This document shows positions 48,858-60,553 of a stretch of 61,007 nt of DNA, in pieces. The first letter of the stretch is position 1; each line of letters opens with the position of its first letter. Source of the DNA: Sulfurimonadaceae bacterium (lineage in GTDB: Bacteria; Campylobacterota; Campylobacteria; Campylobacterales; Sulfurimonadaceae); NCBI GenBank assembly GCA_016744905.1, contig JADGDM010000001.1:92228-153234 (forward strand), given 5' to 3'. Below the pieces are notes generated by a model, which was given only the letters and a program-made list of their open reading frames with translations, did no database searches and was not told the DNA's origin. Both the position numbers and the translations under genes were made by a program.

Positions 48858-50690
48858 CTACTTACTTGTTAGAGAGAGGGTATATCTGTTATCTTCTTCT
48901 AGTGTCTCATGTGCTCTGACGTTTACCGTATACACTTTACCTGCAATAGCATTGTATTCAATATAAGAAAACTTATCAGAATTATAGTAGTTGGTACTTT
49001 CTACAACTTCTAAACCATCCTCGTAGAGGTGTAAGTAAAAACGTGGATCTTCAAATATATGCCCATTCCATATCAGATCTAGGCGTACTCTTTGGCTGGT
49101 TTCAATATCAAAAGTATATGAATCGATACTATTTGTAATACTGTTCAAGATTTTAGTTTGATTTTGATCAAATAGCAGCGTATCGGTGGCAGCAGAAATA
49201 TATCCAGGAGAGACATTCAATACATAGCTTAAGTTTTTATCCAATGTATTATTAGAACGTACCATCACCGTGTATAAACTACCCTCTTGAACCGTATGCT
49301 CATAGTTTGTATAGTTATCTGAATTGTAATAATTATCTTTTGAGATAATTTTCACATCGTCTTCATATATCATCAGCTCAAGATTTGTGTCATAGGATTG
49401 ATCTTTCCAGTTCAGTGAAAAAAGAGTATTTGCATCTTTTAATGCTGTGAAACTGTAAACATCGTAGATATCAGTAAGTTGATTTACACTGTCTTCGTAG
49501 CTGACACTTTCATTTAGATCAATTTTATTGATATTGTTTGAGCTTGTTGTAAGTTCGATGGCGTAAGATAAATTCACATCATTGGTGTCTTCAGATGAGA
49601 TTACCATGGTGTAAGTCATATCTTTTAAAAGTTCAGTTGTATAATTCCAATAATTATCTGTGTCATAATACTCATCTTTAGACTCTTTATATGAACCATT
49701 TTCGTATAAATACAGTTTAAGACTTGTATCTGTTACATCCCAAAAAAGAGATAAGTTAATTAACTCATTGTGCGTTGGAGTATAGGTATAGACATCATAA
49801 AGATCTTCTTTTTGATTGAGAATATCAAGATGAGTATTGTTTGGAACTAAATTAATTGTGTCGCTATTGGCAGTAGAACTTGATATTTCAAGTGCATAAT
49901 CAATATCTTTACTGTAAGTGTCATCAGCTATCATTAAAAAGGTATAGGTATTGCCTTCTGTGAGATTAATACTATTATAGGTAATAAAAAAATTATCTGA
50001 GCTATAGTATCTACTTAAGGCACTTAAATAAACACCATTTTCATAGACTTTCATCTGTATGTTTGCATTTCCCAATGAACTTGAGTTCGTCCAGTTCGCT
50101 TTGATTCCTACAGTTTCACTTTTTGTAGCCAGCATACTATAAGCATTATAAAAATTTGTATTTTGGTTTAATGTATTAAAGAAAGTTTTATTACTGGTAA
50201 TTTCTTGCATATCACCAAGGTTTTGAGCCGAATAAAGTTCAAAAGAGTAATCAATATCTGAATTTTCATCGCCCTCTATCTCAAAAGTATAGGTGTTTCC
50301 AATTACTGCAGAAAAAACCACCTCTTTGGTAAAATCACTGTCATAATAGTTCGAATTACTACCAATAGTAGAACTGCTTGAGTTCTCATAAACTTTTAAA
50401 TTCATATAGGTTGTAATGCTGGTTGGCGACGTCCATGAAATTCGTACACGCATGTTCTCTGTAGCAGTTGCAACATATTTTAGAGTGTAGGTACGTGTTG
50501 ATGCCAGTTGTAGACTTAATCGTTCATTCACTGAGATTGAACTATTGGTAGGGTTGTCAAAATCTCCTGTACCTGTAAGTGCGGTTGGATCACTATTATA
50601 CTCTGCGTCTAAATCGTCATAACTTTTGTCATCACATGCTGAGAAGAATAGTACTCCAAGTAGTAGTGTTATTGATAGATATTTTTTCAT
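48858..50690 (-). CDS. Lipoprotein with five PPC-like beta-sandwich repeats
   Basis: I start at the ATG at 50690 (MKKYLSITLLLGVLFFSAC, lipidated C19), which has a strong ribosome-binding site (aaaaaggaaaaag). The mature 590 residues consist of five tandem units of about 108 residues. Each has the core order YDVYSF-like strand, hydrophobic strand, LxLYENG-like strand, the marker YY(N/D/S)SD(N/K/F), and a final 'YTVMVRS...LSYxLxLxSS' strand. This is the pattern of the PPC (pre-peptidase C-terminal) sandwich found at the ends of secreted proteases. It is downstream of an outer-membrane protein and an M6 protease with a free propeptide, so it may help display or bind the protease. Confidence 0.7.
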   Translation of the reverse strand: MKKYLSITLLLGVLFFSACDDKSYDDLDAEYNSDPTALTGTGDFDNPTNSSISVNERLSLQLASTRTYTLKYVATATENMRVRISWTSPTSITTYMNLKVYENSSSSTIGSNSNYYDSDFTKEVVFSAVIGNTYTFEIEGDENSDIDYSFELYSAQNLGDMQEITSNKTFFNTLNQNTNFYNAYSMLATKSETVGIKANWTNSSSLGNANIQMKVYENGVYLSALSRYYSSDNFFITYNSINLTEGNTYTFLMIADDTYSKDIDYALEISSSTANSDTINLVPNNTHLDILNQKEDLYDVYTYTPTHNELINLSLFWDVTDTSLKLYLYENGSYKESKDEYYDTDNYWNYTTELLKDMTYTMVISSEDTNDVNLSYAIELTTSSNNINKIDLNESVSYEDSVNQLTDIYDVYSFTALKDANTLFSLNWKDQSYDTNLELMIYEDDVKIISKDNYYNSDNYTNYEHTVQEGSLYTVMVRSNNTLDKNLSYVLNVSPGYISAATDTLLFDQNQTKILNSITNSIDSYTFDIETSQRVRLDLIWNGHIFEDPRFYLHLYEDGLEVVESTNYYNSDKFSYIEYNAIAGKVYTVNVRAHETLEEDNRYTLSLTSK

Positions 50691-50701
50691 CTTTTTCCTT
50701 T

Positions 50702-51814
50702 TTAAAATGACCAACTAAGGTTTATTTTGAGATTGTTAACAAGTTCAGATCTTCCATAAATCATCTCCATCTTTCCATCATCATTCTCATCTGAGACTGT
50801 ATCAAAACTAAATTCATCAAGGTACTGTCCATTGTAAAGTATATTAAAATTAAAAGCAGTATATTCAAAAACAAAGCTATGTTGATATCCTAGATTGACC
50901 GCTGCAAATAGATTGACAGCGTCACTAAAACTTATGTTTGTCATACCTGCTTCTTCTAAACGCTTTTTAGCAGCTTGACCTGGATAAGTTTGACTTAATC
51001 CTAAACCGAGTTCAAGTCCATAGATAAAATGCTCTGCTTTAATATAATCAACACCAGCAGTAAGTGTGTATTTATCTGAGGTAAAGTGCTCATCTAAGTC
51101 ATTATAGCCATCGACAAAATAGATGACCTGAGGGAAAGTACTCTCTTCTTTATAAAATTTATAAAAGGAGTAACTTTCTGTATTATAAAAGAGGTTTGAT
51201 TTTGCTTCTATTATATATTTTACACCATATTGATTTTTATTCATAGTGAGTTTTTCGAGATAATCTCCTCGTTTATAATAGCCTTCAAATTCAGCTTCTC
51301 TATATATAAGACTGAATCTTGATACATGGCCTAAAAGAGTATTACTTTGTTCTAAATTTCCGTAACCACCAAGATATTGTGTGGCTAAAAAGAAGAGTTC
51401 ATTGGTATCACTTGCTTCAAGTGTAGGAATATCCCATGGTGCGCTGGTTAGTGTAACATCTGTACCATTAATAGAGTAGGTAAAGTTCCAGTTAAAAATT
51501 TGTAGACGAAGCTCTTTGTAATTAGAATTAATACCTTTAAAGGCAAATTCTCCTGGATCAGCGAGTGAAATCGAGTTTCCTTCAGCGTCAGTAAAGTCTG
51601 GATCACTGATTTCACTTTTAACTCTTAATGTTGAGTACTCCGCACCATAGAGAAGTTCTGCCTTAAATGAGTCGAATATATAACCTTTTGCAGGAGGGGT
51701 TTTAAAGGGAGTTGTCTCAGTTGTATTTATATCGGTTGATGCTTCTATGATTGATACGTTTAATAGTAATAGTGTGAATAAAAAGAGTGATTTAAGTGTG
51801 GTTTTTTTTAGCAT
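50702..51814 (-). CDS. Outer-membrane protein of unknown function
   Basis: The 370-residue product has a signal peptide (KSLFLFTLLLLNVSIIEAS) and a beta-rich mature part with many aromatic, alternating strands (ELLYGAEYSTLRVKSE, TAGVDYIKAEHFIYGLELGL, GYQHSFVFEYTAFNFNILYN). It ends NLKINLSWSF, a typical beta-signal with terminal phenylalanine, so it should be a barrel of about 14-16 strands. The repeat lipoprotein gene follows after 11 bases. No specific porin or transport family recognised; a role in secretion or display of the neighbouring protease is possible. Confidence 0.65.
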   Translation of the reverse strand: MLKKTTLKSLFLFTLLLLNVSIIEASTDINTTETTPFKTPPAKGYIFDSFKAELLYGAEYSTLRVKSEISDPDFTDAEGNSISLADPGEFAFKGINSNYKELRLQIFNWNFTYSINGTDVTLTSAPWDIPTLEASDTNELFFLATQYLGGYGNLEQSNTLLGHVSRFSLIYREAEFEGYYKRGDYLEKLTMNKNQYGVKYIIEAKSNLFYNTESYSFYKFYKEESTFPQVIYFVDGYNDLDEHFTSDKYTLTAGVDYIKAEHFIYGLELGLGLSQTYPGQAAKKRLEEAGMTNISFSDAVNLFAAVNLGYQHSFVFEYTAFNFNILYNGQYLDEFSFDTVSDENDDGKMEMIYGRSELVNNLKINLSWSF

Positions 51815-52255: not shown

Positions 52256-53647
52256 TTAGTTTGGATTGGTGATGGTGAGTGTCATAGTAGATGAAACTGA
52301 TGAAATATTTTCTACTTCTATTGCGGTATCATTACTGTTATATAAACGAGAATTAGGACTGGTACTTGGAGTGAAACGGGTCGCACTGCGTCTATAGAAA
52401 AGGTTTTTAGCATCTCCATGTTCATAAGGACTAGAATCCAGTCTTGCATTAAGTGCTTCTTCAAGGTCAATGCCTTTATGGCTCTCATTTGTCTGTATAC
52501 GGTTGCTGGCATAGTTAGCATAGATGGTTGTTTCATCAATATGCCAAATAGCCATACCGCCAATAAAGCTTCCATCGAGCGAATTTAACCCTTTATCATA
52601 ACCAAGGTTGGCACGATTTTCTACTAAAAAGTATTCATTGGCTACTTGTGTAGGTATTTTTAAAATATCCATATTAGATAGCGCGCTGGCTGAAAGGGTA
52701 TAGGCTTTATCGTTGACCTGTGTCACTACGATTGGTGTTACCCAGCCATTTTTCACTTTAGACCAGGCACACATATGTGTAGGTGTATAGCCTGAAACTT
52801 CACTCTCCTCAGCATATCCCCAAGTTCCTCCACTCATCAATCCAAAGTAACCTATCCCTGCAGAAGAGTCATCTACATCATAAAGATCAGGAAGATCAAA
52901 GGCGGAGTGCCCTAATTCGTGCGCGATAATACCAATACTTGCATCATGTGAACCGATATAGCGACTGTTTTGATCATAATCACTATGTCTCTCACCAAAG
53001 AGTGCGTAGGTTCCATTATTATTACAAGACATCAGTGAAACACCATCTAGAGTAGGGGTGTTTGAGTTTAAAGTACAATCTTGATGTCCCCAAACTCCTG
53101 GTTCACTGGTATCACCAGAATAGGCATCTTCATTTCCAGCAACTATAAAAACTATCTGCAACTCTTGAAAAGAGATATGCCCATTTGAGTCGGTATCGTA
53201 AATGGCGTAATTAATATACTGATCGCTACGCTCTAGCGCCTCTTTTAAATCAGAGTGAATACTGTAGTCTGAACCACTATCTGGATGGTTTTTATCTAAA
53301 AGAATAGTAATCACACCATCTTCTTCAATATCTTCATTTTCATGTGCGCGTTGAAAAGAGAATTTCCCAGCAGAGACTTCTCCATAGTAATGATTGAGTT
53401 GGTGATTAGAATTACCGAAAATTTTATTACTCCAAGTCAGTGCATTTTGTGTGAATTGTGCATTTTGATATTCTAGTCTGACTAAGAGAAGAGGAATATA
53501 GTCGGGAGTATTAGGCGCAGTGACTAAAGTTGTATCATCATCTAAGGGTGTATCAATGGTTTTTGAAGGAGTACTCAATGATATTTCATCACTACACCCG
53601 CTAAATAATAAAAAGAGTAAAAGGCTAAAAGTATATAATTTAAACAT
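52256..53647 (-). CDS. M6 family metalloprotease lipoprotein
   Basis: The 463-residue product has a signal peptide and lipobox (LLFLLFSGC, lipidated C18), so it is anchored to a membrane. The catalytic zinc motif is HELGHSAFDLPDLYD with H243, E244, H247 and D254, the M6 pattern (immune inhibitor A type). Family stretches before and after include YIPLLLVRLEYQNAQFT, LNHYYGEVSAGKFSFQ, YFGLMSGGTWGYAEES and MCAWSKVKNGW. There is no propeptide at its N-terminus; that domain is encoded by the next gene. A C-terminal beta domain ends ISSVSSTMTLTITNPN. Expected to be a secreted endoprotease; substrate unknown. Confidence 0.88.
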   Translation of the reverse strand: MFKLYTFSLLLFLLFSGCSDEISLSTPSKTIDTPLDDDTTLVTAPNTPDYIPLLLVRLEYQNAQFTQNALTWSNKIFGNSNHQLNHYYGEVSAGKFSFQRAHENEDIEEDGVITILLDKNHPDSGSDYSIHSDLKEALERSDQYINYAIYDTDSNGHISFQELQIVFIVAGNEDAYSGDTSEPGVWGHQDCTLNSNTPTLDGVSLMSCNNNGTYALFGERHSDYDQNSRYIGSHDASIGIIAHELGHSAFDLPDLYDVDDSSAGIGYFGLMSGGTWGYAEESEVSGYTPTHMCAWSKVKNGWVTPIVVTQVNDKAYTLSASALSNMDILKIPTQVANEYFLVENRANLGYDKGLNSLDGSFIGGMAIWHIDETTIYANYASNRIQTNESHKGIDLEEALNARLDSSPYEHGDAKNLFYRRSATRFTPSTSPNSRLYNSNDTAIEVENISSVSSTMTLTITNPN

Positions 53648-53692
53648 TGCCTATTATAAAGTATCTTTATTAATACACAAGTAACACAGCGA

Positions 53693-53698
53693 TATAAT
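53693..53698 (+). promoter_or_regulatory. glyQ promoter -10 box
   Basis: TATAAT followed at once by a GC-rich discriminator (tataatgcgcc), 26 bases before the glyQ start, with a ggggaaaag ribosome-binding site between. Confidence 0.6.
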
Positions 53699-53724
53699 GC
53701 GCCATATTAAGTTTTGGGGAAAAG

Positions 53725-54606
53725 ATGCTTACATTTAGTGACATGTTATTAAAATTACAAGAGTTTTGGAAAGATCAGGGTTGTAATATTGTTCAACCAT
53801 ATGACATCTCAGCAGGAGCAGGAACCTTCCATCCTGCAACATTTTTACGCTCACTTGACTCAAAGCCGTGGTCGGTAGCTTATGTGGCACCATCACGCCG
53901 TCCAACTGATGGTCGTTATGGAGAAAATCCTAACCGCCTTGGCTCATATTACCAATTTCAAGCATTGATTAAACCAAGTCCAGACAATATTCAAGAGCTT
54001 TATCTTAAAAGTTTAGAGTACCTTGGTCTGAACCTTCAAAATCATGATATCCGTTTTGTTGAAGATAACTGGGAGTCTCCAACATTAGGTGCTTGGGGTC
54101 TTGGTTGGGAAGTTTGGCTTGATGGAATGGAAGTGACACAGTTTACCTACTTTCAACAAGTCGGGGGTATCGCTTGTGATCCTGTTGCTGTTGAAATTAC
54201 TTATGGAACTGAACGTCTTGCTATGTATCTTCAAGGTGTAGACAATATTTTTGACATCGTCTGGAATGAAAACGAACATGGGACGACGCACTATAGAGAT
54301 ATCCATAAAGAGAGTGAAATAGAGTTCTCAAAATATAATTTTGAAGTGGCGGATATTGAGATGCTGTTTCATGAGTTTGAAGCCAAGTCAAAAGAGTGTT
54401 TACGTGCGCTAGATGCAGAGCTTCCACTGCCTGCGTATGACCTGTGTATGAGTGCTTCAAATACTTTTAATATTTTAGATGCTAGAAAAGCAATCTCTCA
54501 AACTGAGCGCGCCAACTATATTTTGAAAATTAGAGATCTGACAAAAGCCTGTGCTGAATTGTATAAAGCCCAAGAAGAAGATCGTAATAAAAGAGTACAA
54601 GCATAA
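53725..54606 (+). CDS. glyQ: Glycyl-tRNA synthetase alpha subunit
   Basis: Catalytic subunit of the tetrameric alpha2beta2 glycyl-tRNA synthetase. The 293-residue product has [59 protein letters not shown], the [20 protein letters not shown] and [20 protein letters not shown] motifs. glyS is not in the window, so the beta subunit is encoded elsewhere, common in this phylum. A response regulator gene follows after 17 bases and may be co-transcribed. Confidence 0.97.
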
Positions 54607-54623
54607 GCTTATAAAGGGTCATA

Positions 54624-55283
54624 ATGATTAGAATATTAATGCTAGAAGATGACCCTTTAATCTCGAAGCTTGTAGGCAGTTATCTCTCACATCATTTTAC
54701 TATTGATTGTGTTGAAAACCTTAAAGATGCCAACAACTACTTAGACCAACTACATTATGATGTTATTTTACTTGATCGAAATATTGATGGTGAAGATGTT
54801 GGAATGAATCTTATCTCTAAGATTAAAGAAAAAAACTCACAAACCGGTATTATTGTTATTAGCGCCTATGATACTATCAGTGATAAAATCGCAGGATTAA
54901 ACTTAGGTGCAGATGATTATCTAGACAAGCCTTTTGATAATGAAGAGTTATTGGCACGGATCAATGCTTTAGCGCGCCGTCATCAAACAAGCCCGGTTAT
55001 AGATGTTGATGGTCTCATTTGTGATATGGAAAAAAAGAGTCTAATTTATGAAGACCAGCAGATTTTACTTTCTAAAAAAGAGAGTGATCTATTTTTTACA
55101 CTGCTCTCTAAAATATCACAAGTAGTATCAAAAGATGAACTTTTAGATGCCTTATACTTAAACCCTCAAAATATCTCCTCAAATACCATTGATGCGACGA
55201 TTAAAAATATTCGTAAAAAATTACCGGTACAGATCATTAAAACGATTAAAACGAGAGGCTATATTATTGAAAAAATCCAATAG
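54624..55283 (+). CDS. OmpR/PhoB-type response regulator
   Basis: The 219-residue product has a receiver domain with D9/D10, phosphoacceptor D51 (VILLDRNIDGEDVG), conserved S80 (IVISAYDT) and K102 (YLDKPFDN). A winged-helix DNA-binding domain of the OmpR type follows (LSKKESDLFFTLLSK, SSNTIDATIKNIRKKL, IIKTIKTRGYIIEKI). It is the first gene of a three-gene signalling operon; the kinase gene starts inside its end (17-base overlap). Confidence 0.93.
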   Translation: MIRILMLEDDPLISKLVGSYLSHHFTIDCVENLKDANNYLDQLHYDVILLDRNIDGEDVGMNLISKIKEKNSQTGIIVISAYDTISDKIAGLNLGADDYLDKPFDNEELLARINALARRHQTSPVIDVDGLICDMEKKSLIYEDQQILLSKKESDLFFTLLSKISQVVSKDELLDALYLNPQNISSNTIDATIKNIRKKLPVQIIKTIKTRGYIIEKIQ

Positions 55284-56229
55284 CCTACACTCGAGTATCA
55301 TCTCTTTTTTTCTTATAAGCAATCTTATAATATTTTTAGTATTAGCGACGTATCTTATAATAAGTACAACAAGTAGAGCGTTTATTTATGAAATACTAGT
55401 TGTGTATGCCGTGATATTTGGCTTTTCACTGATCAGTTTATGGTTCTATTTAAATAAATTATTTTATCCCTTAAAATGTTTGGTGAATTTTTGTAAAGAT
55501 AGCACTAATGGTGCGATGACTGTCCCTGTATGCAAAGGCTCAACAGAGGTAAATGAAATCAAAGATGCAATTATTTTATTGATGGATGATAATCAACATC
55601 TTTGTGATCAAAAACAAGATGTTTTTAAAGAAGCAGCGCACGAGATAAAGTCTCCGATTGCTGTTTTAAAAGCACGCCTGTCACTCTTTAAGCAAAGTGA
55701 TGACTATAAGAAAGTGCTTTTTATTAAAGAGAGTGAAGAAGATATCATTAGAATTAGTAACAAATTGAAAGAGTTACTATTTTTAAAAGAGATAGAGTGG
55801 GAGATGCTACAAGATCGAGAGAGTGTTTCGATGCAAGATCAGTGTAGTCAGATGCAACAGTTATTTCGTCCAATCTTGGATAAAAAAAATCTTCAAATAA
55901 TCTCAAATTTTGAAGACGATTTTATGTTAACCGTACACCTTAGTGCCATGCAAAAAGTAATGCAGGCTATTTTTGAGAATATATTTATGCATACTAAAAA
56001 CAGTTCTGTTATTCGTACATATATTGATCCCGAAATAGATGAACTCAGTATTGTTAATGAGATAGGGGACAAAAGTGATGAGACCCTATTTAGCTCGCAT
56101 ATAGGAACGAAGATGATTAAACGTCTTTCGGAAAAACTAGACTATAAGTATGAGACGATAGAAAAAGATGGCTATTTCACAACTAAGATACGTTTTAAAG
56201 TTTTAGAGCGCGCTGAGTGCAAAATATAA
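55267..56229 (+). CDS. Membrane sensor histidine kinase with a divergent ATPase domain
   Basis: The probable start is TTG at 55267 (MKKSNSLHSSIISFFLISNL), which begins the first membrane segment; the frame opens 78 bases earlier, inside the regulator gene. It then has a second membrane segment (YEILVVYAVIFGFSLISLWF), a HAMP-like linker and an H-box with H125 (KEAAHEIKSPIAVLK). The ATPase domain is degenerate: the N-box reads FENIFMHTKNSS, and the usual G1 and G2 glycine boxes are replaced by NEIGDKSDETLF and SSHIGTKMIKRL. There is almost no periplasmic sensor domain. It is coupled to the regulator gene, its likely partner. Reduced ATPase signatures leave catalysis uncertain. Confidence 0.83.
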   Translation: MKKSNSLHSSIISFFLISNLIIFLVLATYLIISTTSRAFIYEILVVYAVIFGFSLISLWFYLNKLFYPLKCLVNFCKDSTNGAMTVPVCKGSTEVNEIKDAIILLMDDNQHLCDQKQDVFKEAAHEIKSPIAVLKARLSLFKQSDDYKKVLFIKESEEDIIRISNKLKELLFLKEIEWEMLQDRESVSMQDQCSQMQQLFRPILDKKNLQIISNFEDDFMLTVHLSAMQKVMQAIFENIFMHTKNSSVIRTYIDPEIDELSIVNEIGDKSDETLFSSHIGTKMIKRLSEKLDYKYETIEKDGYFTTKIRFKVLERAECKI

Positions 56230-56241
56230 GAGGACAAGAGT

Positions 56242-58215
56242 ATGAACAGTTGTCCCATTAGTAATAAGCGTACCAGTAAAAATGCAGCACGCTTGGCTGC
56301 TTTTATTAATGTTGTTATTTTGGGTATTTATCTCTTAACAGGCGAATCATTACTGCTCTATTTATTAACTATTGATTTTATTATTAAAGCAGTAAATATT
56401 TCTAAAAGTCCTCTCAGTTGTTCTGCAATGGCTGTTGTTCAAGGCTCTGGAATAGACTTGGAAAATATTGATGCACTGCCAAAACAGTTTGCAGTACGTC
56501 TTGGATTTATTATTTTACTTTCTGCGTCACTGCTTAGTTTGGCGGGTTTTAGCTTAAGCTCAAATATTTTTGTGGCTCTTTTTGTGGCTCTAACTTTTTT
56601 AGAATTTGCCTTTAATTTTTGTGTGGGTTGTTATATGTATACCTTCTATTTAACATTGATAAGCAGTTCTAAACTGGGTAATATTACCCGTATCTTACTC
56701 TTTGTAGTCTCATTTATTATTCTTTTTCTTTTCATAAAAGCGCTTATCTTAGAGTACACAAAAGAGCAGTCTTATAAAGAGATTGAATTAATTTTACAGA
56801 CGCAACTGGCAACGAGAAATTATATTAACACTCAGCAAAAAGTTTTGCTGCAAGAGTTAAAGCTAGAAGGCAGTATCGAAAAAAAATTTTATGACCCTAG
56901 GTTGATGTCGAGCAGTTTTATTACACGCAGTATTCATGCCAATTATAATCGTTTACGTAAGTTGAATGGACAAGAAGAACTTCATATTAAGATTGCAGCC
57001 ATAGAGTCAATGAATGCAAAAAATAGAGCCAATAAATTTGAACTTGCATTGATTGAAAAGTTTAACAAAGGTCAAATTAGCGAATATCGTAGTGTCCAAA
57101 GATTGAATAATGAAGCGTACCTTTATGTGGCACTGGGCACTGAAAAAATTACCACTAAATGTTTACAATGTCATGGTGATATTAAAAGAGCACCCATCGC
57201 GGTGAGTAAATATTACGCTGAACGCACCTCTTTCTCGCAACGTATTGGAGATATTCCTGCCATTATTTCTATCTCTATGCCACTCTCGAGCGCCATGCAA
57301 AAAAGTAAAAGTATCTTGTATACAATATTTTTCAGCATGATGTTTATCTTTTTAGTTATCTATTTTGCGGTGGAAGTTTTTGTAAAATCTTTAAGAGATA
57401 AAGAGAGTCTAGCGCGCCAGCTTCAAGAGGCGACACAAGTGCAAAAAGTAAATCTTCAAGACCGTGTTGAAAGATTGGTCTATGAGTATGAAAAATCTCA
57501 AGAGATACTTCAACAGCAGTCTAAATTGGCGACAATGGGTGAAATGTTGGCATCCATTACACATCAGTGGAAACAGCCTATTTCTACGATGCAAGCAGTG
57601 TTTTTAAATCTCGAACTTGATGAAATGATGAATGTTGGAAATGATGAAAAATACAAAGAGGGTATAGAAAGTATTAAATTACAAGTACAGTTTATGTTGG
57701 AAACTATGGATGATTTTAAAGATTTTTTACGACCTGACAAAGAGCATAGTGAATTTGAATTGCGCCGTGGTGTTGATGAGGTCTTCCATCTTTTCCGTAT
57801 TCAGTATAAAAATATGGGTCTCTCTTTAGAGATGGATTGGGCGCCTAATGTAGTAGTCAAAGGTTATTATAATGAGTATCGCCAAGTTATTTTAAATCTT
57901 ATTAATAACGCCAGAGATGCGTATGATGAAAATAATATCAGAGAAAAAATTATCGAAGTCGCTATTTATGTTGAAGATACGCATGGTGTTATAGAGATCA
58001 AAGACAGAGCTAAAGGGATACCTCAAGAACTTTTTGAAACTATATTTGATCCTTATGTGAGTACAAAAGAGGCTACAAAGGGGACTGGGATTGGTCTTTA
58101 TATGGCGAAGACCATCATAGAAGATAATATGGGTGGAGAACTTTCAGTACACAATACTGATTTAGGAGCTGCCTTTGTTATTAAATTGCCTTTAGTAAAA
58201 GTGGACAGACGTTAA
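56242..58215 (+). CDS. DUF4395 / haem-c (DUF3365-like) / histidine kinase fusion
   Basis: The 657-residue sensor has three parts. Residues 1-140 match DUF4395: N-terminal C4, ALPKQFAVRLGF and the signature FNFCVGCYMYTFYL (C127, C130), with several membrane helices. After a further helix comes a periplasmic domain (about 170-350) of the DUF3365/Tll0287 type with a c-type haem motif CLQCH at residues 307-311. After the next helix comes a coiled coil and a kinase core with H441 (ASITHQWKQPISTM), N-box LNLINNARDAYDE and G2 GTGIGLYMAKTI. It is probably a redox, NO or sulfur-compound sensor (inference). It lies 12 bases after the divergent kinase and regulator genes. Confidence 0.8.
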   Translation: MNSCPISNKRTSKNAARLAAFINVVILGIYLLTGESLLLYLLTIDFIIKAVNISKSPLSCSAMAVVQGSGIDLENIDALPKQFAVRLGFIILLSASLLSLAGFSLSSNIFVALFVALTFLEFAFNFCVGCYMYTFYLTLISSSKLGNITRILLFVVSFIILFLFIKALILEYTKEQSYKEIELILQTQLATRNYINTQQKVLLQELKLEGSIEKKFYDPRLMSSSFITRSIHANYNRLRKLNGQEELHIKIAAIESMNAKNRANKFELALIEKFNKGQISEYRSVQRLNNEAYLYVALGTEKITTKCLQCHGDIKRAPIAVSKYYAERTSFSQRIGDIPAIISISMPLSSAMQKSKSILYTIFFSMMFIFLVIYFAVEVFVKSLRDKESLARQLQEATQVQKVNLQDRVERLVYEYEKSQEILQQQSKLATMGEMLASITHQWKQPISTMQAVFLNLELDEMMNVGNDEKYKEGIESIKLQVQFMLETMDDFKDFLRPDKEHSEFELRRGVDEVFHLFRIQYKNMGLSLEMDWAPNVVVKGYYNEYRQVILNLINNARDAYDENNIREKIIEVAIYVEDTHGVIEIKDRAKGIPQELFETIFDPYVSTKEATKGTGIGLYMAKTIIEDNMGGELSVHNTDLGAAFVIKLPLVKVDRR

Positions 58216-58297
58216 CGCAGTTAGCGCTTATTTTCGAAAACATCTGCACTTTTGTGTGGATATCTGACATAATTTCTTCCTCTCGCTTACATTTTGA

Positions 58298-58303
58298 TAC
58301 AAT
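58298..58303 (+). promoter_or_regulatory. Extended -10 box (TGATACAAT) close to the recD2 start
   Basis: TACAAT with an upstream TGA extension ends six bases before the recD2 ATG. No ribosome-binding site lies between, predicting a leaderless transcript. Confidence 0.6.
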
Positions 58304-58309
58304 CACATC

Positions 58310-60553
58310 ATGCAAACACTTATAGGTCAAATTGACAATATTATTTTCGAAGATGATAGTTTTTTTATTGCTTCACTCAAAAGTAAAGAGAAAATCTCTG
58401 GACATTACTATGAGAGTGAAATTACTGATCTTAAAGGGGCGGCCATTAGCCTCAGTGGTGAGTATGAAGAGCATAAAAAATATGGTAAAAGTTTTAAATT
58501 TACTTCTCTAAAAGTCAATCAAAATCAACTATTTTTCTTTCTAAACAAAGTTATTAAAGGCTTTCCTAAGAAACTCTCTGCAGAACTTATTGAGAAGTTT
58601 GGAGAAGAGGGTTTAATAGATGTTTTAGATAATGATATAGAAAAGCTTTTAGAATTTAAAGGGATAAAAGAAAAACGTCTTCAAAGCATCCAAAACTCAT
58701 GGAAAAAATATCGTTCTATGAGACAGTTGGGTGAATTTCTTTCCCCTTATGATGTCAGTGCCACCCTTCTGACTACAATAGCTATGTCTATGAAAGAGGT
58801 AAAAGACCCTATAAATCGTATCAAAAACAATCCTTATGTATTAACCTCTATTGCAGGTATTGGTTTTAAGCGTGCTGATGAAATAGCACTAAAAATGGGT
58901 ATAGAGGAGAAGGCAGATAGACGTCTGGCTTCAGCAATGGACTATGTCTTAAATGAGTACTGTGAACAGCAGGGTAACTCTTGTGTGCATAAAGATATTC
59001 TTTTTAGTCGACTTGATGATAGCTTGAATTTCCTTGGACAAAATGCACTGTATGAGGGTGTGTTGGTTGAGCGTGTGATAGAGGGAAATATTATTGCTCT
59101 TAATCATGATCGGTATGCGCCTCTACGCCTTTATGAAGCGGAGAAACTTTTATATGATGAGTTTATTCGGCGCGCTAAGATAAAAGAAGAACCTATTGTA
59201 AAAGATCTTGATGGATTTTTGGAACATAGTGATCTCAATTTAGGTGAGCAGCAACGTAGCGCGCTAGAGAAGATTAATGATGGTCTTAAAATTCTCTTTT
59301 TGATTGGTTATGCTGGAACGGGTAAAAGTACAACATCAAGAACAATTTTACAGTTACTAAAAACAAAACATGATGAAAAAACGATTATGACCTGTGCGTT
59401 GAGTGGTATTGCTTCACAACGTATTGGAGATACTACAGGGTTTGAAAGCTCAACCATTCAGGCACTATTGGTGAAGTACGAAGAGCGTGACTATTTTCCC
59501 TTTAATGTAGTTTTGATTGATGAAGCGTCGATGATTAACTCTTCACTGTTTGCACGTTTATTGGTTAAAGTTCCCCGTGATGCGATACTTATTATTGTGG
59601 GTGATGATGCACAGCTTCCACCGATAGGGGCTGGAAATGTATTAAGTGATGTGATCTCTTTAGAGATTGCACCTATTGTAAAGCTTACAAAAATTTATAG
59701 ACAACATGAAGATCAAGCGATAGCCTTGATTGCTAATGATATACGTCAATCCGTGGTACCACATTATAAAGAGGAATATGAAGATTTTTCTTTTATTGAT
59801 GTCTCTATTTCTAACTATTATGGGGCTAAAAAATCAAGTTCAGCAAATGAGTTCAGCGCGCTACGTGATGAAAATACAGAGTCTATTTTAGCCACTATTA
59901 TCTCAAAAGCGATGGAACACATTCCTAAGGCACGCGCACGTCTAAAAGCCAAAGAAATTGCTTCATATTTGAACTACTTTCAAGTGATATCTCCGATGAA
60001 AAGTGGTGTTTTAGGAACAGATAATCTCAATAAAGTGCTACAAGAGTATTTTAATCCAGATGCCAAAAAAGTGATTAAACGTGGCGAAAAAGAGTTCCGA
60101 TTGATGGATAAGGTAGTACATATTAAAAATGAAAATATGACCTCTTGGAGTGGAGATGAGTTTAAAGACAACAGCGAGAGTGCGCAGAGACGTATCTTTA
60201 ATGGAATGTTGGGTCTACTTTTTAAAATAGAAGAGGAAGAAGGGAGCATTTATGTTTTCTATCCTAATGAAGACCTTGTTGTTATCTATGAACTGGAGCA
60301 ACTCAAATCACATCTTATGCTCTCGTACGCATTAACCATTCATAAGGTTCAAGGTATGGAATATGATATTGTTGTCATTCCTATGAGCTTTTCTCACTAT
60401 ATTATGCATAACACTAAGCTTTTATACACCGCTATAACACGTGCAAAAAACCGTTGTTTTATTATAGGAGAAAGTGGAGCATTTGAGTCAGCGTGTCGTA
60501 GAAACGATGTGAATAATAGAGATACTATTATTCTGGAATTAGGGCATAAATAA
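58310..60553 (+). CDS. recD2: RecD2-type DNA helicase
   Basis: Superfamily 1B 5'-3' helicase found in bacteria without a RecBCD partner context; involved in DNA repair and replication integrity. The 747-residue product has an N-terminal OB-like and helix-hairpin-helix region (LLEFKGIKEKRLQSIQN, SIAGIGFKRADEIALKM), then Walker A from residue 333 (GYAGTGKSTTSRTI), motif II IDEASMINSSLF, motif III VGDDAQLPPIGAGNV and motif VI AITRAKNRCFII with LSYALTIHKVQGMEYDIV. It is monocistronic with an apparently leaderless promoter. Confidence 0.93.
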   Translation: MQTLIGQIDNIIFEDDSFFIASLKSKEKISGHYYESEITDLKGAAISLSGEYEEHKKYGKSFKFTSLKVNQNQLFFFLNKVIKGFPKKLSAELIEKFGEEGLIDVLDNDIEKLLEFKGIKEKRLQSIQNSWKKYRSMRQLGEFLSPYDVSATLLTTIAMSMKEVKDPINRIKNNPYVLTSIAGIGFKRADEIALKMGIEEKADRRLASAMDYVLNEYCEQQGNSCVHKDILFSRLDDSLNFLGQNALYEGVLVERVIEGNIIALNHDRYAPLRLYEAEKLLYDEFIRRAKIKEEPIVKDLDGFLEHSDLNLGEQQRSALEKINDGLKILFLIGYAGTGKSTTSRTILQLLKTKHDEKTIMTCALSGIASQRIGDTTGFESSTIQALLVKYEERDYFPFNVVLIDEASMINSSLFARLLVKVPRDAILIIVGDDAQLPPIGAGNVLSDVISLEIAPIVKLTKIYRQHEDQAIALIANDIRQSVVPHYKEEYEDFSFIDVSISNYYGAKKSSSANEFSALRDENTESILATIISKAMEHIPKARARLKAKEIASYLNYFQVISPMKSGVLGTDNLNKVLQEYFNPDAKKVIKRGEKEFRLMDKVVHIKNENMTSWSGDEFKDNSESAQRRIFNGMLGLLFKIEEEEGSIYVFYPNEDLVVIYELEQLKSHLMLSYALTIHKVQGMEYDIVVIPMSFSHYIMHNTKLLYTAITRAKNRCFIIGESGAFESACRRNDVNNRDTIILELGHK

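Follow-up and report, generated by a model that had tools for sequence, protein, structure and literature searches.

A single gene in the window (the whole 61,007-nucleotide stretch of Sulfurimonadaceae DNA analysed here) encodes a protein of 657 residues (P0001) in which DUF4395, a haem-c Cache domain (sCache_heme) and a histidine kinase follow one another in that order, as judged by Pfam. On the sequence, the gene is real and is a new domain combination made from known parts, and its product is predicted to be a plausible two-sided sensor. The reading that we tentatively prefer, and whose chance of being right we put at a little short of even, is that of a membrane sensor kinase in which the periplasmic haem-c Cache domain would supply the main input, from a sulfur compound or redox state, while DUF4395 would supply a second, cytoplasm-facing thiol input.

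The fusion gene and its local setting

The ATG start of the gene lies 12 bases 3' of the preceding stop, and the opposite strand is full of stops (Table 1). The first-pass annotation had described a three-part architecture here, and Pfam recovers DUF4395, the haem-c domain and the kinase in one ORF. The gene sits within a 153-kb contig; that a chimeric contig may lie behind the DUF4395 fusion is a formal possibility. Loss of a stop codon is an unlikely origin for the fusion, given that residue 139, a TTG, is the sole in-frame start-type codon between M132 (inside FCVGCYMY) and residue 202, and that only ~20 residues separate C130 from TM5. A weak terminator-like stem is found at the stop of the gene (58210-58226), and promoter-like sites in 53400-58500 occur at chance level (23 vs 20.7 in shuffles). 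A single-sequence AlphaFold model of residues 1-413 was unusable (pLDDT 48).

Table 1. Coordinates of the fusion gene, its encoded features and the two genes preceding it (window numbering)
Feature	Position	Strand	Basis
Whole gene, DUF4395 - sCache_heme - histidine kinase, 657 aa	56242..58215	+	ORF, Pfam
DUF4395 domain, residues 14-136, ~four TM helices, probably N-in/C-in	56281..56649	+	PF14340, E = 4.5e-22
Cys4 of N-terminal C-P motif, predicted cytoplasmic	56251..56253	+	C in 21/28 rows
FCVGCYMY motif, F126-Y133, containing Cys127 and Cys130; predicted at the cytoplasmic end of TM4	56617..56640	+	Alignment
TM5, residues 151-169, outward to periplasm	56692..56748	+	Hydropathy
Tll0287-like / sCache_heme domain, residues 173-347, periplasmic	56758..57282	+	PF11845, E = 2.1e-21
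CLQCH haem-c attachment motif, residues 307-311	57160..57174	+	Sequence, alignment
TM6, residues 362-380, back into cytoplasm	57325..57381	+	Hydropathy
HisKA, residues 432-499; His441 at 57562-57564	57535..57738	+	PF00512, E = 6e-4, below cut-off
HATPase_c, residues 545-651, with N, G1, F and G2 boxes	57874..58194	+	PF02518, E = 2.8e-18
OmpR-family response regulator	54624..55283	+	Response_reg 9.5e-24, Trans_reg_C 2.5e-14
Second histidine kinase, ~320 aa; overlaps the regulator, probable TTG start	55267..56229	+	Orthologue comparison

The full kinase core reported at first pass is borne out by an HATPase_c match of 66.8 bits (cut-off 26.4) and by recognizable N, G1, F and G2 boxes, which start at residues 552, 588 (DRAKG), 602 and 614 (GTGIGL), respectively. 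The HisKA match, at 20.2 bits, falls below its cut-off of 26.9, yet the H-box is intact, with H441 in GEMLASITHQWKQP. The only cysteines of the whole protein are C4, C60, C127, C130, C307 and C310.

On the same strand, glyQ, the OmpR regulator and a second kinase precede the fusion gene; together with a RecD-like helicase, these are its neighbours (named by eye), and no sulfur-reductase operon adjoins it. From this gene order, the OmpR regulator is the likely partner of the fusion kinase. Among orthologues of the regulator-kinase pair (L087-L103), the closest of which are 55-60% identical, the kinase is mostly ~410 aa long with a periplasmic region; this periplasmic sensor is missing in the window's genome and in G305 (L098), and is shortened in one G307 copy (L096). 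In all orthologues read, the second kinase has no DxGxG (G1) box, and none of these pairs is followed by a gene resembling the fusion. We would offer only as a hypothesis that the fusion protein replaces the lost input of the second kinase.

Within the window, two overlapping minus-strand genes (48858-50714 and 50702-51814; 618 and 370 aa) have no Pfam match at E 0.001.

DUF4395: conservation, topology and other contexts

The assignment of residues 1-140 to DUF4395 made at first pass agrees with the domain search, in which residues 14-136 match PF14340 (profile positions 4-128 of 130) with 79.2 bits against a cut-off of 24.5; the FCxGCxxY motif, a PKxFA-type motif and an N-terminal C-P are all present. 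Across 28 aligned DUF4395 proteins, C127, C130, K81, A84 and Y133 are invariant, and C4-P is common to 21, all of the ~145-aa class. C60 is not one of the residues commonly found at its alignment position, and no relative in the 28-row alignment shares it. The four membrane cysteines noted earlier are thus present, but by this alignment they are not four equivalents: three (C4, C127 and C130) are family-conserved and one (C60) is private to the fusion.

By hydropathy, each half of DUF4395 contains two hydrophobic stretches, and the mean K+R count over 27 relatives is 5.8 in loop 2-3 and 3.1 after TM4, compared with 0.2-0.3 in both outer loops. Attachment of c-type haem is established to take place outside the cytoplasm (PMC12889525); TM5 must therefore point outward, and DUF4395, if composed of four helices, would have its N and C termini inside, with C-P, K81 and CxxC expected at the cytoplasmic side. 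Hydropathy and the positive-inside rule thus indicate that the conserved cysteines should face the cytoplasm, which would place the two putative inputs on opposite faces of the membrane. A search of PDB with the DUF4395 profile found no relative; the domain has no assigned role, and a full-text search of the literature turned up its name in two papers only.

The fusion is rare. Among 228 same-family and 399 order genomes (overlapping samples), residues 1-353 occur in one open frame in its own genome only, while the others match either DUF4395 (~1-142) or the haem part (~148-350) separately. Scanning 397 Campylobacterota genomes with PF14340 detected DUF4395 in 75, mostly in ORFs of ~140-190 or 230-290 aa, in keeping with the earlier description of a usually stand-alone small membrane protein. 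Profile surveys of the fusion and of DUF4395 were confined to Campylobacterota; across the genomes searched, the survey of the fusion and its neighbouring genes returned a singleton, and no orthologue that might show selection was found. A plasmid search gave no match. Candidate adjacent DUF4395 genes, suggested by matches back to residues 58-118, were discarded as read-through noise with internal stops.

Such rarity would suit a recent, non-selected fusion in which DUF4395 does no more than stand in for a signal anchor, without a role of its own, as would the private C60 and the Y found where many relatives carry K after GC. However, overall identity to relatives is only 20-34%, yet the class-A motif residues (C4-P, K81, A84, C127, C130 and Y133) are all retained, whereas drift would be expected to erode a dispensable anchor; we hold an origin of this kind to be very unlikely.

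Stand-alone DUF4395 proteins (PF14340, ~145 aa) share with the fusion the same motif residues, ~four TM helices and the N-in/C-in charge pattern, but they are normally encoded as separate genes, often beside Rrf2 or sulfur-assimilation genes, whereas in the fusion the domain is joined to a sensor kinase. At 23 stand-alone class-A loci, Rrf2 genes (10/23) and O-acetylhomoserine sulfhydrylase genes (4/23) lie on the same strand within 1.5 kb, with at least one of these at 12 loci; the wider regions contain cysH, cysN, cysK and rhodanese-type genes (several named by eye). For one DUF4395-adjacent Rrf2 protein, the top NCBIfam match, below cut-off, is CymR, a regulator of cysteine metabolism. This sulfur neighbourhood is a positional correlation and not a function. 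The sulfur or redox context proposed at first pass gains indirect support from it (Rrf2 and cys genes) and from the reductase operons of the nearest haem kinases, described below.

DUF4395 paralogues beside cysteine genes (L074 7454-7963; L076 4986-5432) are without C-P and keep CxxC (FCFAC, VCFAC), and a second class of ~245 aa (L010, L014, L022, L023) is without C-P and has an extra CPGGVC motif; this latter class adjoins DUF302-like genes in 4/11 loci.

DUF4395-like modules also occur in other signalling proteins. Ten further same-family genomes contain a stop-free frame of 447-719 aa with a DUF4395-like N-terminus and a Cys-rich loop, and GGDEF is present in all five such frames read (L161, L164, L165, L169, L170); in four more genomes (L173-L176), these two portions are encoded by separate genes that overlap or adjoin. 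Of nine such N-termini, eight match PF14340, at 2.3e-6 for the best, and five match YgaP-like_TM as well; hhalign of the GGDEF-linked modules against true DUF4395 gives a probability of 85% (E = 6.7e-6 over 130 columns). FGFC is kept, the second Cys of FCxGC is gone and C-P is absent, marking these modules as distant DUF4395 relatives. In the genome of the fusion itself, another DUF4395 gene shares 4 bp with the end of a GAF-PAS-GGDEF-EAL gene (L071 4654-7241). That divergent relatives of DUF4395 are fused to GGDEF(-EAL) genes, or overlap them, in ~14 genomes suggests a signalling module that recurs. Like the fusion, the GGDEF(-EAL) proteins carry an N-terminal DUF4395-like membrane module within a signalling protein; unlike it, their module is divergent (FGFCxS, no C-P), a Cys-rich loop takes the place of the haem domain, and the output is c-di-GMP. 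The earlier view of DUF4395 as a domain of no known role, to which the fusion gives a signalling context, therefore needs tempering, as divergent relatives elsewhere are already joined to GGDEF(-EAL).

Linkage to this other output, including the 4-bp overlap in the fusion's own genome, could be taken to mean that DUF4395 is the functional core, e.g., a membrane thiol- or sulfur-handling protein, and that the haem kinase reports its state or the membrane redox, the haem sensing redox and not a ligand. Against this, the GGDEF-linked relatives are divergent, as the above E value and hhalign probability attest, and have partly lost the motifs; nor is DUF4395 known to have a biochemical activity. 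We regard this explanation as distinctly improbable. A more general proposal, which we treat as speculative and rather unlikely, is that DUF4395 would be a cytoplasm-facing, thiol- or sulfane-sulfur-sensing membrane module plugged into different outputs (kinase, c-di-GMP enzymes, Rrf2-linked loci), with the fusion comparing cytoplasmic thiol or persulfide with the periplasmic sulfur-compound or haem state.

The haem domain and its nearest kinases

The DUF3365-like domain with CLQCH seen at first pass is upheld by a full-length PF11845 match (4-144 of 144) to residues 173-347, with 77.3 bits against a cut-off of 24.1. This Tll0287-like domain, formerly DUF3365, has been renamed sCache_heme (PMC12889525), and a profile of sCache relatives matches the haem-c protein Tll0287 (PDB 5b82, E = 1.3e-13). 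The CXXCH lies at the family position, and across 27 aligned rows neither its two cysteines nor its histidine vary. Covalent haem c on CLQCH is predicted from the motif, the periplasmic placing and a ResB-type cytochrome c maturation protein encoded in the genome. The domain has no Cys besides C307 and C310; an axial-type Cys is absent, as in nearly all signalling sCache_heme members read, and stand-alone proteins (L117, L064, L065) have a Cys there. Matches to other sCache_heme proteins start at about residue 148, i.e., at TM5, which is the counterpart of the N-terminal TM in stand-alone members. An exact-peptide-pattern scan of the genome contigs, weak as a negative, returned only two loci, both stand-alone sCache domains. 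Also in this genome, a Sulf_transp (YeeE/YedE-like) permease gene directly precedes that of an sCache_heme-GAF-HD protein, and in G305 a Sulf_transp gene comes after the sensor-less kinase (L127 1646-5272; L121 2696-5241).

In its sequence features, a fused signalling module and no axial Cys, the fusion fits sCache_heme cluster 2, the proposed NO-sensor group (PMC12889525). It shares with the sensor kinases described there the CXXCH in a full-length domain between two TMs, the kinase output and the lack of an axial-type Cys; unlike them, it has an N-terminal DUF4395, ~four extra TMs and no HAMP match, and the TM before its sensor comes directly after DUF4395.

The best-matching sensor regions are about 33-36% identical to that of the fusion, with kinase cores at 33-39%. 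These best matches come from four loci of other Campylobacterota (L124, L125, L132, L133), where a regulator and sCache_heme kinase adjoin genes for rhodanese, a TorD-like chaperone, NrfD and a molybdopterin oxidoreductase; at four others (L130, L134, L135, L142), a pair with a related kinase adjoins the octahaem sulfite reductase MccA; and at L131, a related sCache_heme kinase adjoins a PhsA-like oxidoreductase. The MccA of L130 matches PDB 4rkm with 1478 bits, and those of the other three loci are named by resemblance and gene order. W. succinogenes reportedly has regulation of the MccR/MccS type; our search of the open literature for a regulator of MccA found none. In all of these sulfur-operon regulator-kinase pairs, the domain order of the kinase equals that of the fusion after DUF4395, and at L130 an OmpR-type regulator is encoded upstream of the kinase, as for the fusion. 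These kinases are ~480 aa long, without DUF4395, and are encoded directly beside the regulator and reductase operon, whereas for the fusion another kinase lies between it and the regulator, with no reductase adjoining.

When sensor and kinase core are combined in one tree, the fusion joins the sulfur-operon group with support of 98/94, on a long branch (1.62) outside a tight clade. Holding it as direct sister of the sulfur-operon clade is not rejected (AU p = 0.16), while its union with other kinases (C115-/L116-type) is mildly rejected (p = 0.039); a tree of the sCache sensor only leaves it unplaced. The gene neighbourhoods of these loci suggest, for one branch of the haem-c Cache kinases, a function in sulfite and polysulfide/thiosulfate-type respiration.

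Candidate signals and what the fusion implies

The main competing account is that of a periplasmic NO sensor kinase, in which haem c would bind NO from denitrification and DUF4395 would be a non-sensing membrane add-on. The best experimental precedent for this haem domain in signalling proteins is indeed NO binding, which the first-pass annotation did not consider: a haem-Cache protein of P. azotoformans (membrane/HAMP, no axial Cys) binds NO tightly in vitro, whereas with O2 it gives no stable complex, and signalling sCache_heme members were proposed to be NO sensors (PMC12889525, a 2026 preprint). The fusion likewise is without an axial Cys, and its genome encodes NirS (cytochrome d1, E = 6.3e-61) and a NorB-like protein (by eye). 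However, just one signalling-type protein has been assayed so far, the nearest sCache_heme kinases adjoin sulfite and psr/phs-like reductase operons and not NO genes, and sulfur genes are frequent as DUF4395 neighbours. The genome also contains psr/phs-like operons; it has two NrfD operons, and MccA was not found in it in a search run without a positive control; with NirS, the NorB-like protein and the NrfD operons in one genome, both NO and sulfur signals could exist in the habitat. Sulfur is favoured by the gene neighbourhoods of the nearest relatives and NO by the biochemistry of a distant one. We would rank a sulfur or redox signal ahead of NO, without high confidence, and consider the NO account somewhat unlikely.

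Under the preferred two-input model, the Cache domain would be shifted either by a sulfur compound used in respiration, namely sulfite, polysulfide or thiosulfate, or by the redox or ligand state of the haem, and this shift would be relayed via TM5 and TM6 to a dimeric kinase. His441 would then be phosphorylated and the phosphate passed to the OmpR regulator. DUF4395 would tune the kinase via the thiols of C4 and C127/C130, e.g., through persulfidation or disulfide formation; alternatively, it may be a membrane portion that handles sulfur species. Points that weigh against this model are the long branch of the fusion, its position outside the tight sulfur-operon clade, the failure to find MccA in the genome or a reductase gene beside the fusion, the NO binding of a signalling family member together with NirS and the NorB-like protein of this genome, and the singleton status of the fusion in the survey.

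Ultimately, the sulfur-operon haem kinases qualify the proposal that signalling sCache_heme members are NO sensors. The host is a sulfur-metabolising Campylobacterota bacterium. Through the fusion, a signalling role of DUF4395 becomes testable with the kinase as read-out, and the known orientation of the sensor to which it is naturally joined implies a topology for DUF4395 in which its cysteines would be cytoplasmic.
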